This document shows positions 41,388-45,501 of a stretch of DNA of 50,885 nucleotides, piece by piece; position 1 is the stretch's first letter; each line of letters opens with the position of its first letter. Made by a program: the position numbers and the translations under genes. The DNA comes from an uncultured Bacteroidota bacterium (lineage in GTDB: Bacteria; Bacteroidota; Bacteroidia; Flavobacteriales; Flavobacteriaceae), in the NCBI GenBank assembly GCA_913041125.1, contig CAJWHM010000011.1:1-50885 (forward strand), read 5' to 3'. Under the pieces are notes generated by a model. That model saw nothing but the letters and a program-made list of their open reading frames with translations, was not told the DNA's origin and ran no database searches.

Positions 41388-42470
41388 TTATTTATTTAAA
41401 ATCTTTTCTTGCTTATTAATTGATTCTTGATGAATAGCCTTAAATACTTTAAGAATAAATTCTTCCGACAGATCCCTTTCCTCTCCTTCAAGTATCATTT
41501 TTCCTAAAATCTCATTCCAACGTTTATTTTGAAGAACAGCTACATTATTAGATTTTTTTAAAACACCTATTTCGTTAGCTACTCTCATTCGCTTTCCAAG
41601 GGTGTCTAAAAGTGTTTGGTCTGCAACATCTATTTGTGCACGTAAATTATTTAACTGCTGTTTATAAGATTCTTCATCAGTAGTTTTCTTTCTTACTTTA
41701 AGGTCTTTCATGATTTCAATTAATCTTGAAGGAGTTACTTGCTGTTTTGCGTCACTCCATGCATTATCTGGATCCCAATGTGATTCTATCATTAAACCAT
41801 CATAGTTTAAGTCTAAAGCGGCTTGAGAAATATCAAAAATCAAATCCCTTCGTCCAGAAATATGTGATGGATCACATATCATTGGTAAATCAGGAAAACG
41901 ATTTTTAACTTCGATAGGAATCTGCCATTCTGGATTATTCCTAAATTTAGTTTTTTCGTAAGTTGAAAAACCTCGGTGAATAAGTCCTAATTTATTGATA
42001 TTCGCTTTGTACAGCCGTTCAATTCCACCAAGCCATAGGGCTAAATCTGGATTTACTGGATTTTTTACTAATATAATTTTATCAGTTCCTTCAAGAGCAT
42101 CTGCAATTTCTTGCATTATAAAAGGACTTACTGTTGATCGTGCTCCTATCCAAAGAATATCTACATCATTTTCAATTGCTAAGTCAACATGATTTTTATT
42201 AGCAACCTCAGTTGCTGTTAAAAGGCCTGTTTCATCTTTTACCTTTTTTAACCATTTCAATCCAATTGCACCAACTCCTTCAAACATACCCGGTTTTGTT
42301 CTTGGCTTCCAGATTCCTGCTCTATAAACTGTTACGTCACTTTCTTTCAATTCATGTGCAATTTTTAAAACTTGTTCTTCAGTTTCTGCACTGCATGGGC
42401 CTCCAATTACAAGTGGATGATTCAATCCAAAATCAACAAGCCATTGACGCATTTCTTTTTTATTTTCCAT
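41388..42470 (-). CDS. Bifunctional DAHP synthase/chorismate mutase
   Basis: A 360-residue fusion. The N-terminal part (about 1-260) is a type I-beta DAHP synthase with GGPCSAET (23-30), GIWKPRTKPGMFEG, WIGARSTVSPF, DPSHISGRRDL and SHWDPDNAWSDAKQQ, which includes metal-binding residues. The C-terminal part (about 265-350) is an AroQ chorismate mutase with LRAQIDVADQTLLDTLGKRM and VLKKSNNVAVLQNKRW. It thus catalyses the first step of the shikimate pathway and the branch step to prephenate; in related fusions the mutase domain mediates feedback inhibition by prephenate. It is the fourth gene of the pheA operon, 27 nt after tyrA. Confidence 0.95.
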   Translation of the reverse strand: MENKKEMRQWLVDFGLNHPLVIGGPCSAETEEQVLKIAHELKESDVTVYRAGIWKPRTKPGMFEGVGAIGLKWLKKVKDETGLLTATEVANKNHVDLAIENDVDILWIGARSTVSPFIMQEIADALEGTDKIILVKNPVNPDLALWLGGIERLYKANINKLGLIHRGFSTYEKTKFRNNPEWQIPIEVKNRFPDLPMICDPSHISGRRDLIFDISQAALDLNYDGLMIESHWDPDNAWSDAKQQVTPSRLIEIMKDLKVRKKTTDEESYKQQLNNLRAQIDVADQTLLDTLGKRMRVANEIGVLKKSNNVAVLQNKRWNEILGKMILEGEERDLSEEFILKVFKAIHQESINKQEKILNK

Positions 42471-42497: not shown

Positions 42498-43346
42498 TTA
42501 ATTTATTCCAGTTAAAATTTCTTTAATAGCATTAGTTTTAAGCATTTTATCATAAATAGCTTCATAATTTTTTTGTTCAATAAGCCTTTTAAATTCTTGT
42601 AAATTTGAAATATATTGATCTAATACCTCTAAAATATTTTCTTGATTTTGTTTGAAAATAGGAGTCCACATATCTGGAGAACTTTTTGCCAAACGAACTG
42701 TTGATTCAAAACCACTCCCAGCCATGTCGAAAATAGTTTTTTCATCCTTCTCTTTTTCCATTACTGTTTTACCTAGCATAAATGAAGAAATATGGGAAAG
42801 ATGAGAAACATATGCGATGTGTTTGTCATGTTCTTTTGGGTCCATTTCCCTTAGCCTCATGTTTATATTTTTGAACCAACTGACTGCCCACTCTAAAAGG
42901 TCTGGTCTTGTTTTATTTGTCTCACATAAAATTTGTGATTTACCAATAAACAAAGAATCAAAAGCAGCTGTAGGTCCAGAAAATTCAGTGCCAGCTATAG
43001 GATGTGTTGCAAGGAACTGATTTCTCTTCGGGTGAAAAGCCACTTTTTCACAAATCATTGATTTTGTTGAGCCCACATCAATTAATAAAGTATTATCATT
43101 GATTTGATCTAATAAATCATCGATAAGGTCAAGAGCAGCGTCAACAGGTATTGCTAGAAGAATAACATCCATTTGAAAAAAATCAGATTTTTTAAGAATT
43201 TCATCAATAAGACCTAATTCTAATGCCCTCTTTTCATTCTCAAGATTTTTGTCATTTCCAAATAATCTTGAAGGAGATACATGTTTTTTTGCTGCTAATG
43301 CAAATGATCCACCTATTAATCCAAGTCCAATTATTCCTATTTTCAT
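42498..43346 (-). CDS. tyrA: Prephenate dehydrogenase
   Basis: A 282-residue NAD(P)-dependent dehydrogenase converting prephenate to 4-hydroxyphenylpyruvate for tyrosine. The nucleotide-binding loop is GLGLIGGS (residues 7-14). LIDVGSTKSMI, HPIAGTEFSGP and HIAYVSHLSHISSFML (substrate-binding His) are intact. No ACT domain and no chorismate mutase domain are attached; the mutase is fused to the DAHP synthase encoded next. Its start overlaps the stop of the aminotransferase gene by 4 nt. Confidence 0.95.
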   Translation of the reverse strand: MKIGIIGLGLIGGSFALAAKKHVSPSRLFGNDKNLENEKRALELGLIDEILKKSDFFQMDVILLAIPVDAALDLIDDLLDQINDNTLLIDVGSTKSMICEKVAFHPKRNQFLATHPIAGTEFSGPTAAFDSLFIGKSQILCETNKTRPDLLEWAVSWFKNINMRLREMDPKEHDKHIAYVSHLSHISSFMLGKTVMEKEKDEKTIFDMAGSGFESTVRLAKSSPDMWTPIFKQNQENILEVLDQYISNLQEFKRLIEQKNYEAIYDKMLKTNAIKEILTGIN

Positions 43347-44491
43347 GACTCAAACCTTTTAATTGCTTCTTTTATCTTTTCCTCTGAAACACAAAGTGAA
43401 AAACGAATATACCCTTCTCCTTGGCTTCCAAATACAGTTCCAGGTGTGATGAAAATATTTTTCTCTTTAAGAATTCTATCAATAAAAGCTTCAGAATTAT
43501 TGAGTCCTTTGGGGAGTCTTGCCCATAAAAAAAGACCTACTCCTTCTTTTTCTATTCTAGCACCAAGTTTCTTAATTAAATTTTTCATTAATTCCCTCCG
43601 TTTCTTGTAAACTTTATTAAGTTCATAAAACCAATCAGGTGTCATATTTAATGCTTCTATTGCACCTTGCTGAATTCCAAATAACATTCCAGAATCCATA
43701 TTACTTTTTACCTTCAGCGCTTGTGTTAAAACTTTTTCATTTCCAATCATCATACCAACACGCCATCCTGCCATATTAAAAGATTTACTTAATGAATTTA
43801 ACTCAACAGCTACTTCTTTTGCATAGGGTCTTGATAAAATACTTTGAGGTTTTTCTGTTAAAATAAAACTGTAAGGATTATCATTTATTAAAAGAATATC
43901 CCTTTGTCTAGCCCATAGAATGAGTTTATCAAAAGTTTCGACTGAAACATCTGTTCCAGTTGGCATATGTGGATAGTTCAACCACATAATTTTTACTTTG
44001 GAAGTATCTAAATGATCTAAAAATTCAAAGTCAGGCTGCCAATTTTTGGATGGATTTAAATCATAAAAAATTGTTTTGGCTTCCATTAATCCAGCCACGG
44101 ATGAATAAGTTGGATAACCTGGGTTAGGAATTAACACTTCATCTCCAGAGTTAAGAAAAGCCATTGATAGATGCATTATACCCTCTTTTGATCCCATTAA
44201 AGGAAGTACCTCAGACTCAGGATTAAGGTTAACATCATAATGTTTTTTGTAAAAACTAGATATTGTTTTTCTAAGTTCAGGTAGCCCTTGATAACTTTGA
44301 TACATATGAGCTCTAGGATGACTCATAGCACTACTTAAAGCTTTAACAACACTGGGATTCGGTTCAATATCAGGACTACCAATACCCATATTAATTACAG
44401 GTTTCCCCGAATTCATCATCCTAGAAACTTCTTTTAGTTTTCTAGAAAAATAGTATTCTTTAACAGAATCTAAACGTTTAGCTTTTTTCAT
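43343..44491 (-). CDS. PLP-dependent aminotransferase of the aromatic operon
   Basis: A 382-residue class I aminotransferase. The PLP lysine is Lys236 in LNSLSKSFNMAGWRVG, with NYPHMPTGT (172-180) and INDNPYSF (Asp204). The NYPHMPTG motif replaces the common NPxNPTG. It lies between pheA and tyrA with 4-nt overlaps on both sides, so it most likely transaminates phenylpyruvate and 4-hydroxyphenylpyruvate, or prephenate. This assignment is from context; sequence alone does not decide the substrate. Confidence 0.9.
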   Translation of the reverse strand: MKKAKRLDSVKEYYFSRKLKEVSRMMNSGKPVINMGIGSPDIEPNPSVVKALSSAMSHPRAHMYQSYQGLPELRKTISSFYKKHYDVNLNPESEVLPLMGSKEGIMHLSMAFLNSGDEVLIPNPGYPTYSSVAGLMEAKTIFYDLNPSKNWQPDFEFLDHLDTSKVKIMWLNYPHMPTGTDVSVETFDKLILWARQRDILLINDNPYSFILTEKPQSILSRPYAKEVAVELNSLSKSFNMAGWRVGMMIGNEKVLTQALKVKSNMDSGMLFGIQQGAIEALNMTPDWFYELNKVYKKRRELMKNLIKKLGARIEKEGVGLFLWARLPKGLNNSEAFIDRILKEKNIFITPGTVFGSQGEGYIRFSLCVSEEKIKEAIKRFES

Positions 44492-45321
44492 ATCACATGT
44501 TGTTCATATTCACCTAAAATTTTAAATTTTGAAGCCATAATCTCAATAAGTTTTCTAGCCTTATTGTAATTAGAATAATCATCAAAAGTCACATCTACAA
44601 AAAAAGCGTATTTACCAGGAATTTCTATTACTGGAAGTGATTGAATTTTGGTTAAATTTAAATGACAGTCACTCATAACATTCAAAACTGCAGCTAAGCT
44701 TCCCCTCTTGTGATCTAAAATAAACTTTAAGGAAGCTTTGTTTATTTGTTTTTTAGGAACTAAGCTTCCTTTATTTTGAACAATAAAAAATCGAGTTACA
44801 TTATTTTTTATTGTCTGTATAGATGAAGCATAAATTGTAAGATTGAACATATTAGCTGCTTCTTGACTCGCAATTGCACCTCTTCTTTTCAATTGATTTT
44901 TTGATATATTAAGTGCTTCTTCTGCGGTGTCTTCAGACTCAACTAATCGGATATGGGGATAATTTTTAAAAAAAGACTTGCATTGTAGTAATGCCATTGG
45001 GTGTGAAAACACCTCATCAATTTCTTCTATGCTCTGACCATCTAATCCCATGAGGTTATGATTAATATTTAGACCGTATTCTCCAATAATTTTCAAATTA
45101 TTTTGATCAATTAATGCATAATTTGGTATTATAGATCCAGCTATTGAGTTCTCAATAGCCATAACAGCTAAATCTGCATTTTCTTCTAATAATTCTTTTA
45201 CGGTTTGATCGAATGAATCACAAAGAACTAGAGAGGTGTCATCCTCAAAATATCGATTTACAACGATGTTGTGAAATGATCCTAATTTACCTTGTATCGC
45301 AACCTTAATTTTCTGTTTCAT
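44488..45321 (-). CDS. pheA: Prephenate dehydratase
   Basis: A 277-residue monofunctional enzyme making phenylpyruvate from prephenate. The PDT domain (about 1-182) has the catalytic Thr-Arg-Phe motif at 176-178 (NNVTRFFIV) and AIENSIAGSI near residue 56. The C-terminal ACT domain (about 197-275) is altered at the two Phe-binding motifs: RGSLA in place of GALV-type and IQSLP in place of ESRP. It is the first gene of the aromatic operon. Its ATG is 8 nt downstream of the T-run of an intrinsic terminator that follows a Phe/Tyr-rich leader frame. Confidence 0.95.
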   Translation of the reverse strand: MKQKIKVAIQGKLGSFHNIVVNRYFEDDTSLVLCDSFDQTVKELLEENADLAVMAIENSIAGSIIPNYALIDQNNLKIIGEYGLNINHNLMGLDGQSIEEIDEVFSHPMALLQCKSFFKNYPHIRLVESEDTAEEALNISKNQLKRRGAIASQEAANMFNLTIYASSIQTIKNNVTRFFIVQNKGSLVPKKQINKASLKFILDHKRGSLAAVLNVMSDCHLNLTKIQSLPVIEIPGKYAFFVDVTFDDYSNYNKARKLIEIMASKFKILGEYEQHVI

Positions 45322-45329
45322 TTAAAGTC

Positions 45330-45359
45330 AAAAAAAAAGCCCTGAATAAGTCAGGACTT
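45330..45359 (-). terminator. Attenuator terminator in the pheA leader
   Basis: On the minus strand AAGTCCTGA pairs with TCAGGGCTT (9 bp, one G-T wobble) around the 5-nt loop CTTAT. An uninterrupted run of nine T (45338-45330), the first two within the stem, follows. This is a textbook intrinsic terminator, yet it stands between the promoter and pheA. The 5' arm with its preceding C (CAAGTCC, 45360-45354) can instead pair with GGATTTG at the end of the leader frame (45395-45389), which would be the antiterminator. Confidence 0.85.
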
Positions 45360-45385
45360 GTTTTTATGTTATTTCGTTTAGAATA

Positions 45386-45454
45386 TTACAAATCCCCCTT
45401 AACCTCTAAAAAGAAGTAAAAATAATTTGAATAAAATAAATTAGTATTGTTCAT
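45386..45454 (-). CDS. Phe/Tyr-rich leader peptide of the pheA operon
   Basis: A 22-codon frame from ATG to TAA. Residues 6-16 read LFYSNYFYFFL, so it has four Phe (7, 12, 14, 15) and three Tyr (8, 11, 13) codons, with five aromatic codons in a row at 11-15. It starts 17 nt after the -7 box and ends 26 nt before the terminator stem. The 3' codons GGG GAT TTG form the proposed antiterminator arm. A ribosome waiting at the aromatic codons would leave this arm free, while one reaching the stop codon would cover it. The function as a control peptide is inferred from this geometry. Confidence 0.8.
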   Translation of the reverse strand: MNNTNLFYSNYFYFFLEVKGDL

Positions 45455-45470
45455 ATTCTAAATAATTAAG

Positions 45471-45501
45471 CAAAAGTAATATTGCTTTTATCAAAAACAA
45501 A
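45471..45501 (-). promoter_or_regulatory. Consensus promoter of the aromatic amino acid operon
   Basis: TTTG (45501-45498), a spacer of exactly 19 nt and TACTTTTG (45478-45471) match the full Bacteroidota promoter consensus, the best match in the window. Transcription should begin about 10 nt upstream of the leader ATG, so pheA has a leader of roughly 140 nt, unlike the very short leaders elsewhere here. Confidence 0.75.

Follow-up and report, generated by a model that had tools for sequence, protein, structure and literature searches.

The pheA operon and its leader region

The stretch of DNA analyzed here (50,885 nucleotides, hereafter the window) comes from one contig in a 60-contig draft genome of 1.71 Mb. 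Of three named records with a related PheA, the closest was a Candidatus Arcticimaribacter MAG (68% PheA identity), which makes a marine flavobacterium the likely source. Its minus strand carries an aromatic amino acid operon that begins with pheA, coding for prephenate dehydratase (44488–45321; PF00800, E 5.7e-52), and continues with genes for a class I/II aminotransferase (43343–44491; PF00155), the prephenate dehydrogenase TyrA (42498–43346; PF02153 and PF20463) and a DAHP synthase/chorismate mutase (41388–42470; PF00793 and PF01817). The pheA, tyrA and DAHP synthase/chorismate mutase genes had already been named in an earlier sequence-only reading of this DNA, and the Pfam matches confirm them. 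An aminotransferase homologue was found immediately 3′ of pheA at 94 of the 109 leader-bearing loci with long flanks. The upstream neighbor, a gene for an EamA transporter (from 45570, plus strand), flanks the promoter region; because it is divergent, no co-directional gene ends at the terminator of the pheA leader.

A letter-by-letter check of the minus strand gave the order promoter, 22-codon open reading frame (ORF), candidate antiterminator arm, intrinsic terminator and pheA operon, an arrangement that the sequence-only reading had taken for a Phe/Tyr-sensing attenuator. The predicted promoter of the Bacteroidota type, TTTG-N19-TACTTTTG, was located as proposed at 45501–45471, with the -33 element TTTG at 45501–45498 and the -7 box TACTTTTG at 45478–45471, and the leader ATG lies 16 nt downstream of the -7 box. 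In 29 of 33 genus regions, the pattern TTTG-N17–21-TAnnTTTG was present no more than 80 nt from the leader ATG; TAnnTTTG itself occurred in the last 45 nt for 61 of 146 leaders, compared with a mean of 6.1 in shuffles. The ORF itself runs from the ATG at 45454 to the TAA at 45386 and encodes the peptide MNNTNLFYSNYFYFFLEVKGDL, with a counterpart ORF in all 33 genus regions. Seven of its 22 codons are aromatic, and the earlier count of four Phe (7, 12, 14 and 15) and three Tyr (8, 11 and 13) was correct. The putative control codons are thus Phe7, Tyr8 and the run Tyr11-Phe12-Tyr13-Phe14-Phe15 (45410–45436).

Three further elements follow from the capacity of this leader to pair. A candidate protector arm, CAAATT (45424–45429), is able to pair with GATTTG at 45394–45389. 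The antiterminator 5′ arm, GGGATTTGT (45388–45396), occupies the final sense codons and reaches one base into the stop codon, and its partner, ACAAGTCCT (45353–45361), overlaps the 5′ arm of the terminator. The G-run noted earlier (GGGGG, 45398–45394) belongs to a set of 8 GGGGG occurrences on the minus strand in a window with 30% GC. The intrinsic terminator, AAGTCCTGA-CTTAT-TCAGGGCTT (45330–45359), consists of a 9-bp stem with a 5-nt loop (45359–45337) and a T9 run that ends at 45330, 8 nt upstream of the pheA ATG at 45321, exactly as first read. Rfam 15 includes leader-peptide and T-box families, and none of its families matched above the gathering score anywhere in the window.

In chance tests on the window sequence, the terminator folded far better than shuffles (z -4.65, with 0 of 200 shuffles as good), but the surrounding 10 kb contained about as many terminator-like sites as shuffles would (4 versus 3.8 expected). 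Folding of the leader without the terminator was not significant (z -1.34), and neither was the aromatic count of the window leader, since 37% of its open dinucleotide shuffles reached at least 7 aromatic codons. This last test is conservative because shuffling retains the U-richness that the aromatic codons cause; over 146 leaders, the aromatic-codon shuffle test gave p ≤ 0.05 in 128. Evidence from the single sequence is insufficient alone, and comparison decides.

Conservation and coding constraint of the leader

PheA matches were obtained in 33 of 38 genomes from the genus and 84 of 100 from the family, with the window's own genome counted in both, giving 116 upstream regions; the five genus genomes with no PheA match were left out of the leader counts. 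The search of these regions asked for a short ORF with at least five aromatic residues and a terminator after it. With a loose setting, leader and terminator were detected upstream of pheA in 110 of the 116 regions, in 2 of 30 hisG regions and in 8 of 30 trpE regions; with a strict setting, the counts were 106 of 116, 0 of 30 and 0 of 30. The same procedure found none in 28 ilvD upstream regions, and the whole arrangement appeared in 0 of 1500 random segments of the window. The earlier reading had looked to homologous loci for loss of the aromatic codons or the terminator, and both were kept together in all 33 regions from the genus and in 126 of the 132 from the family. Among the six family regions without detection, G048 was truncated at the edge of its contig, and in G066 an aromatic run was seen by eye whose ATG went undetected, while the leader was judged by eye to be absent upstream of pheA in G013, G023, G035 and G080.

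Leader detection is biased in that it prefers the ORF richest in aromatic residues, with at least five of these required in the wider sets. A choice blind to residues, which took whichever ORF was longest ahead of the strongest terminator, nevertheless picked the aromatic ORF in 28 of 33 pheA regions. When the genus was scanned with a covariance model of the pheA leader, 33 of 38 genomes gave one strong match each, adjoining pheA; these 33 had also supplied the training sequences, so that only the uniqueness of the match is informative (weaker matches, with E from 0.001 to 0.1, were left out). G108 had a second strong match beside a PheA fragment. A weak match on the opposite strand of the window (45276–45365, plus strand, E 0.013) was discounted and is probably due to the palindromic terminator.

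Samples from the order, class and phylum were then added. One search among them yielded PheA in 32 of 119 genomes (30 loci used, the window's own included), another in 38 of 79 (30 loci used, plus 5 of the other 8) and a further one in 172 of 198 (43 new regions taken). In total, leader and terminator were detected in 172 of 220 regions. Of the 46 families sampled, counting f79 once although it carries two labels, 25 had one or more such regions. These figures are counts and not rates, as the samples were partly chosen (32 of the 48 regions in one wider set were hand-picked for family spread) and cover only genomes where PheA matched. A few of the distant leaders, for example that of G138, are weak, with only 5–6 aromatic residues. 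No leader was detected among the regions sampled from families f72 (0 of 7), f2 (0 of 4) and f13 (0 of 3). The f72 loci (L165, L166 and L170–L174) belong to genomes of about 0.6 Mb in which pheA is present and neither leader nor terminator was found, as would be expected if reduced, perhaps symbiont, genomes lose attenuation control. At four loci of the same phylum but outside the class (L278, L281, L288 and L289), an aromatic leader precedes a pheA whose product is 42–43% identical to that of the window. For f79 (G336) and f97 (G440), one other genome each was examined, and its PheA was more distant and its pheA had no leader. The regulated pheA operon may, to judge from these sequences, have been transferred between classes.

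Within the genus, constraint on the leader falls at the level of codons. Codons 12, 13 and 14 are aromatic in all 33 genomes, with changes that are only synonymous or between Phe and Tyr, and aromatic codons occupy positions 7, 8, 11 and 15 in 32, 32, 30 and 28 genomes, respectively; codons 3, 4, 16 and 19 are free to vary. Two non-aromatic residues, Asn9 (30 of 33) and Glu17 (31 of 33), are also nearly fixed, which would fit a nascent-peptide sensor like TnaC, where the aromatic peptide, acting jointly with free amino acid bound by the ribosome, would cause or relieve arrest and operate the same RNA switch. We regard such a sensor as very unlikely. Glu17 lies in paired columns 49–52 of the alignment and Asn9 at paired columns 25–26, and because both fall in paired columns, their conservation can be explained by RNA pairing. 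Moreover, the residues next to the aromatic run change across family representatives while the run persists, exchange of Phe and Tyr is tolerated, and the sister leaders described next simply bear His or Trp codons.

These sister leaders came from comparison loci in the genus, namely hisG (30 of 35 matching genomes), trpE (30 of 36, with paralogues of the trpE family left out) and ilvD (28 of 30). When ORFs were picked blind to residue, pheA leaders averaged 7.67 Phe plus Tyr (33 leaders), hisG leaders 2.93 His (30 leaders, 28 of them with a His run) and trpE leaders 1.96 Trp (26 leaders from 29 regions), and no terminator was found upstream of ilvD in 27 regions. In the window's own genome, hisG is preceded by the His-rich leader MKQKKHHNHQNLNYSNVI and the terminator CCCGTTTGAGTGATCAAACGGG with a T-run (L177, contig C7), and a terminator was present upstream of hisG in all 30 genus regions examined. 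Likewise, trpE is preceded by the Trp leader MKNYNVKSWWHNNDS and a terminator with the near-constant loop GTCATCACGA (L256, contig C2); by eye, the antiterminator of the trpE leader seems to pair with the terminator loop and inner stem rather than with the outer stem. Like the pheA leader, both have a short ORF with cognate codons and a terminator before the first gene, but the sequences are unrelated. At the ilvD loci (L224 and others among L207–L234), a stretch about 200 nt upstream looked conserved by eye, with motifs such as TTGAATGTATTAAA, TTGATAATCA and TTGAATATAAGAG.

The cognate codons of the hisG and trpE leaders also bear on the idea that the pheA element is a new riboswitch or protein-binding leader that senses the amino acid, with the ORF being incidental. 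A structured 5′ element without an Rfam match would fit such a leader. However, conservation is at the codon level, and the genus alignment has no obvious conserved core beyond the reading frame and the competing arms, making this explanation highly improbable.

Trp is present in 62 of 147 pheA leaders. In the family set, leaders with Trp were found in 50 of 78 genera, compared with 16.9 expected from shuffles, while the wider set had 21 of 62 versus 15.7 expected and the window's genus 2 of 33. The Trp-codon signal is therefore strong in the family only. Its commonest context is NWFY, with 19 cases. This suggests that Trp-bearing leaders of the family may sense all three aromatic amino acids, which, if true, would suit an operon that includes DAHP synthase.

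Competing RNA arms and ribosome position

The antiterminator pairing proposed earlier, GGATTTG (45395–45389) with CAAGTCC (45360–45354), was found as described, with 7 bp including one G-U, and it can be extended to GGGATTTGT/ACAAGTCCT, a helix of 9 bp with two G-U pairs. A helix of at least 6 bp between the 52 nt scanned before the terminator and the terminator 5′ arm was found in 139 of 147 leaders. Pairing between these regions had a mean score of 18.4, compared with 12.3 when the pre-terminator region was shuffled, and 102 of 147 leaders reached p ≤ 0.05 individually; when the short terminator arm was shuffled instead, only 49 of 147 did so. The arms match while their sequences differ. For example, GGGATTTGT/ACAAGTCCT in the window corresponds to AGGACTTT/AAAGTCCT in the genus and to CGAGAC/GTCTCG, ACGGGACT/AGTCCCGT, GAGGCTTT/AAAGCCTC, AGCGGGA/TCCCGCT, GAGCGGTC/GACCGCTC and GGCAGGA/TCCTGCC in other leaders.

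Swapping of partners between genomes gave z 19.4 for all 147 leaders, z 10.8 for the 78 family genera and z 12.6 for 37 leaders from the order and class samples, with 0 of 20,000 permutations matching the observed pairing in each case. With one genome per family (25 families), the lowest z in 20 draws was 7.6, and 0 of 40,000 permutations matched. Antiterminator and terminator arms change together across families. The compensatory stem changes anticipated in the earlier reading are thus present at this level, but none was two-sided in the antiterminator helix within the genus, where the swap test gave z 1.0. The genus-level test is uninformative because the terminator arm is invariant in the genus; since this arm also belongs to the terminator, a change in it needs matching in three places, as the families show. 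Among individual genomes, the register of the window helix is one base off relative to most relatives, four genus genomes have another helix instead (GATCAGG, ATCAGG or CAGG), with only 4–7 bp, and the best helix of G104 and G118 is located elsewhere.

With covariation in hand, coincidence can be weighed, that is, an AT-rich stretch that happens to encode Phe and Tyr codons beside a constitutive terminator. The window sequence taken singly would allow it, with an aromatic count within the range of shuffles and no excess of terminator-like sites nearby. The comparative data refute it through the conservation of the arrangement, the constraint on the aromatic codons, the covariation and the failure to recover the arrangement from random segments, and we give it virtually no weight.

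Covariation also bears on the possibility that the leader ORF acts on translation of pheA, by reinitiation or coupling, with the hairpin serving as a processing or stability element. The T-run ends only 3–16 nt before the PheA match across the genus, and leader ORFs at 11–14 bp from genes are overrepresented in Bacteroidetes, where a role in reinitiation has been proposed for them (PMC4833913), both of which would be in line with such control. However, the leader stop codon in the window is 64 nt upstream of pheA, the hairpin bears the marks of an intrinsic terminator with a T-run retained in all 33 genus regions, and the arm that covaries is the one that competes with the terminator. Control of translation or stability is accordingly rated as extremely unlikely, and the arms are discussed below as parts of a transcription attenuator.

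The position of the ribosome was modeled with an assumed footprint that extends 14 nt upstream and 15 nt downstream from the first base of the P-site codon. With this footprint, a ribosome at the stop codon masks at least half of the arm in 129 of 139 leaders, and in 112 it masks all of it. When the RNA was folded as transcribed to the terminator loop, the mean antiterminator probability in the window was 0.94 with the ribosome on the aromatic codons and 0.00 with it at the stop codon, and the corresponding medians over 139 leaders were 0.96 and 0.00 (8 of 147 leaders, with a helix below 6 bp, were dropped). In 133 of 139 leaders, at least one aromatic codon, when occupied by the ribosome, gave more antiterminator than the stop codon did. 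This partial-transcript folding was chosen after the full-length result and shows geometry rather than proof. The last aromatic codon is 7–13 nt upstream of the arm in 126 of 139 leaders, close to where the assumed footprint ends; a spacing below 10 nt occurs in 45 of 139, and a ribosome stalled there would partly mask the arm. The earlier estimate of a workable distance for a stalled ribosome fits the partial-transcript model with the assumed footprint, but at equilibrium the full-length RNA of the 6 leaders folded had the terminator winning in every ribosome state, with an antiterminator probability of at most 0.17. Antitermination must therefore be kinetic and take place during transcription. 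Kinetic action during transcription is accepted for trp-type attenuators.

Three alternative structures had been proposed at the outset, including a protector hairpin. The predicted minimum-energy fold of the window leader contains the CAAATT/GATTTG hairpin, and in the genus a helix that partly overlaps it (columns 18–26 with 64–72) has 86.9% of cells paired and 3 pairs with two-sided change. Without a ribosome, however, the antiterminator was favored in the window (0.85) and exceeded 0.5 in 94 of 139 leaders. In these folding models, the protector hairpin has little strength in the window and does not extend to leaders in general.

Proposed control of the operon and related systems

The Phe/Tyr attenuator of the sequence-only reading gains support overall from conservation, covariation and the cognate hisG and trpE leaders. 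On these grounds, the pheA leader is very probably a trp-type, ribosome-mediated transcription attenuator of the pheA-aminotransferase-tyrA-DAHP synthase/chorismate mutase operon. RNA polymerase would initiate just past the -7 box, and the leader would be translated as it emerges. With charged tRNA-Phe and tRNA-Tyr ample, the ribosome would reach the stop codon and cover GGGATTTGT in the last codons, leaving the CAAGTCCT segment free for the terminator, and transcription would halt before pheA. With Phe or Tyr scarce, the ribosome would stall on uncharged tRNA in the aromatic run and leave GGGATTTGT exposed, which could then pair with ACAAGTCCT before the terminator 3′ arm emerges, allowing polymerase to read through. 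If the leader is not translated, the hairpin between the aromatic codons and the antiterminator arm, weak as it is in the window, may favor termination.

In proteobacteria, attenuation of amino acid operons is textbook knowledge. The pheA and trp attenuators of E. coli and Salmonella have codons for the product amino acid in a leader peptide, and mutually exclusive antiterminator and terminator structures precede the operon. The window leader resembles them in its cognate codons and in its competing antiterminator and terminator. It differs from the pheA leader of E. coli and Salmonella in reading Phe and Tyr (often Trp as well in the family) rather than Phe alone and in having no Rfam match, and its antiterminator arm lies within the last sense codons and stop codon.

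Classical trp attenuators in Actinobacteria have repeated regulatory codons and complementary triples common to antiterminator and terminator (PMC1262725); the pheA leader has the same traits, while phylum, amino acid and sequences differ. Little was found on amino acid attenuation in Bacteroidota among open-licence papers. Short ORFs reminiscent of attenuation leaders have been described in B. thetaiotaomicron (PMC7366714, 2020). In Flavobacterium psychrophilum, 5′ elements without an Rfam match were reported before pheA and hisG and are common to other Flavobacteriaceae (PMC9723704, ISME Commun. 2021), and the same paper separately presents strong hints that amino acid operons of this species are attenuated through leader peptides. 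Its pheA element is in the same family and before the same gene as the attenuator of the window, and neither has an Rfam match, so the pheA attenuator was partly anticipated there. The sequence, codons, structure and reach beyond the family of the pheA element were not found in the text of that paper, whose supplements may hold more. Relative to that text, what is new here is the anatomy, the covariation, the reach over 25 families and the frequent Trp codon in family leaders. The reach and anatomy of the pheA attenuator were not found described in open-licence papers, and a comparative study cited in PMC4833913 may list Bacteroidetes cases.

The analysis points to a likely regulator of the aromatic pathway in these bacteria and would justify annotating the leader gene and setting up an Rfam family for the element. 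Bacteroidetes are without Shine-Dalgarno sequences (PMC6847099), and a conserved element at the aromatic operon across many families offers a ready assay for transcription-translation coupling without Shine-Dalgarno initiation. We lean slightly toward a broader view, in which one leader peptide reading all three aromatic amino acids would be an old and widespread regulator of the phylum, with Trp lost in the window's genus, and which, together with the His and Trp leaders, would imply early coupling of transcription and translation in bacteria that initiate without Shine-Dalgarno sequences.
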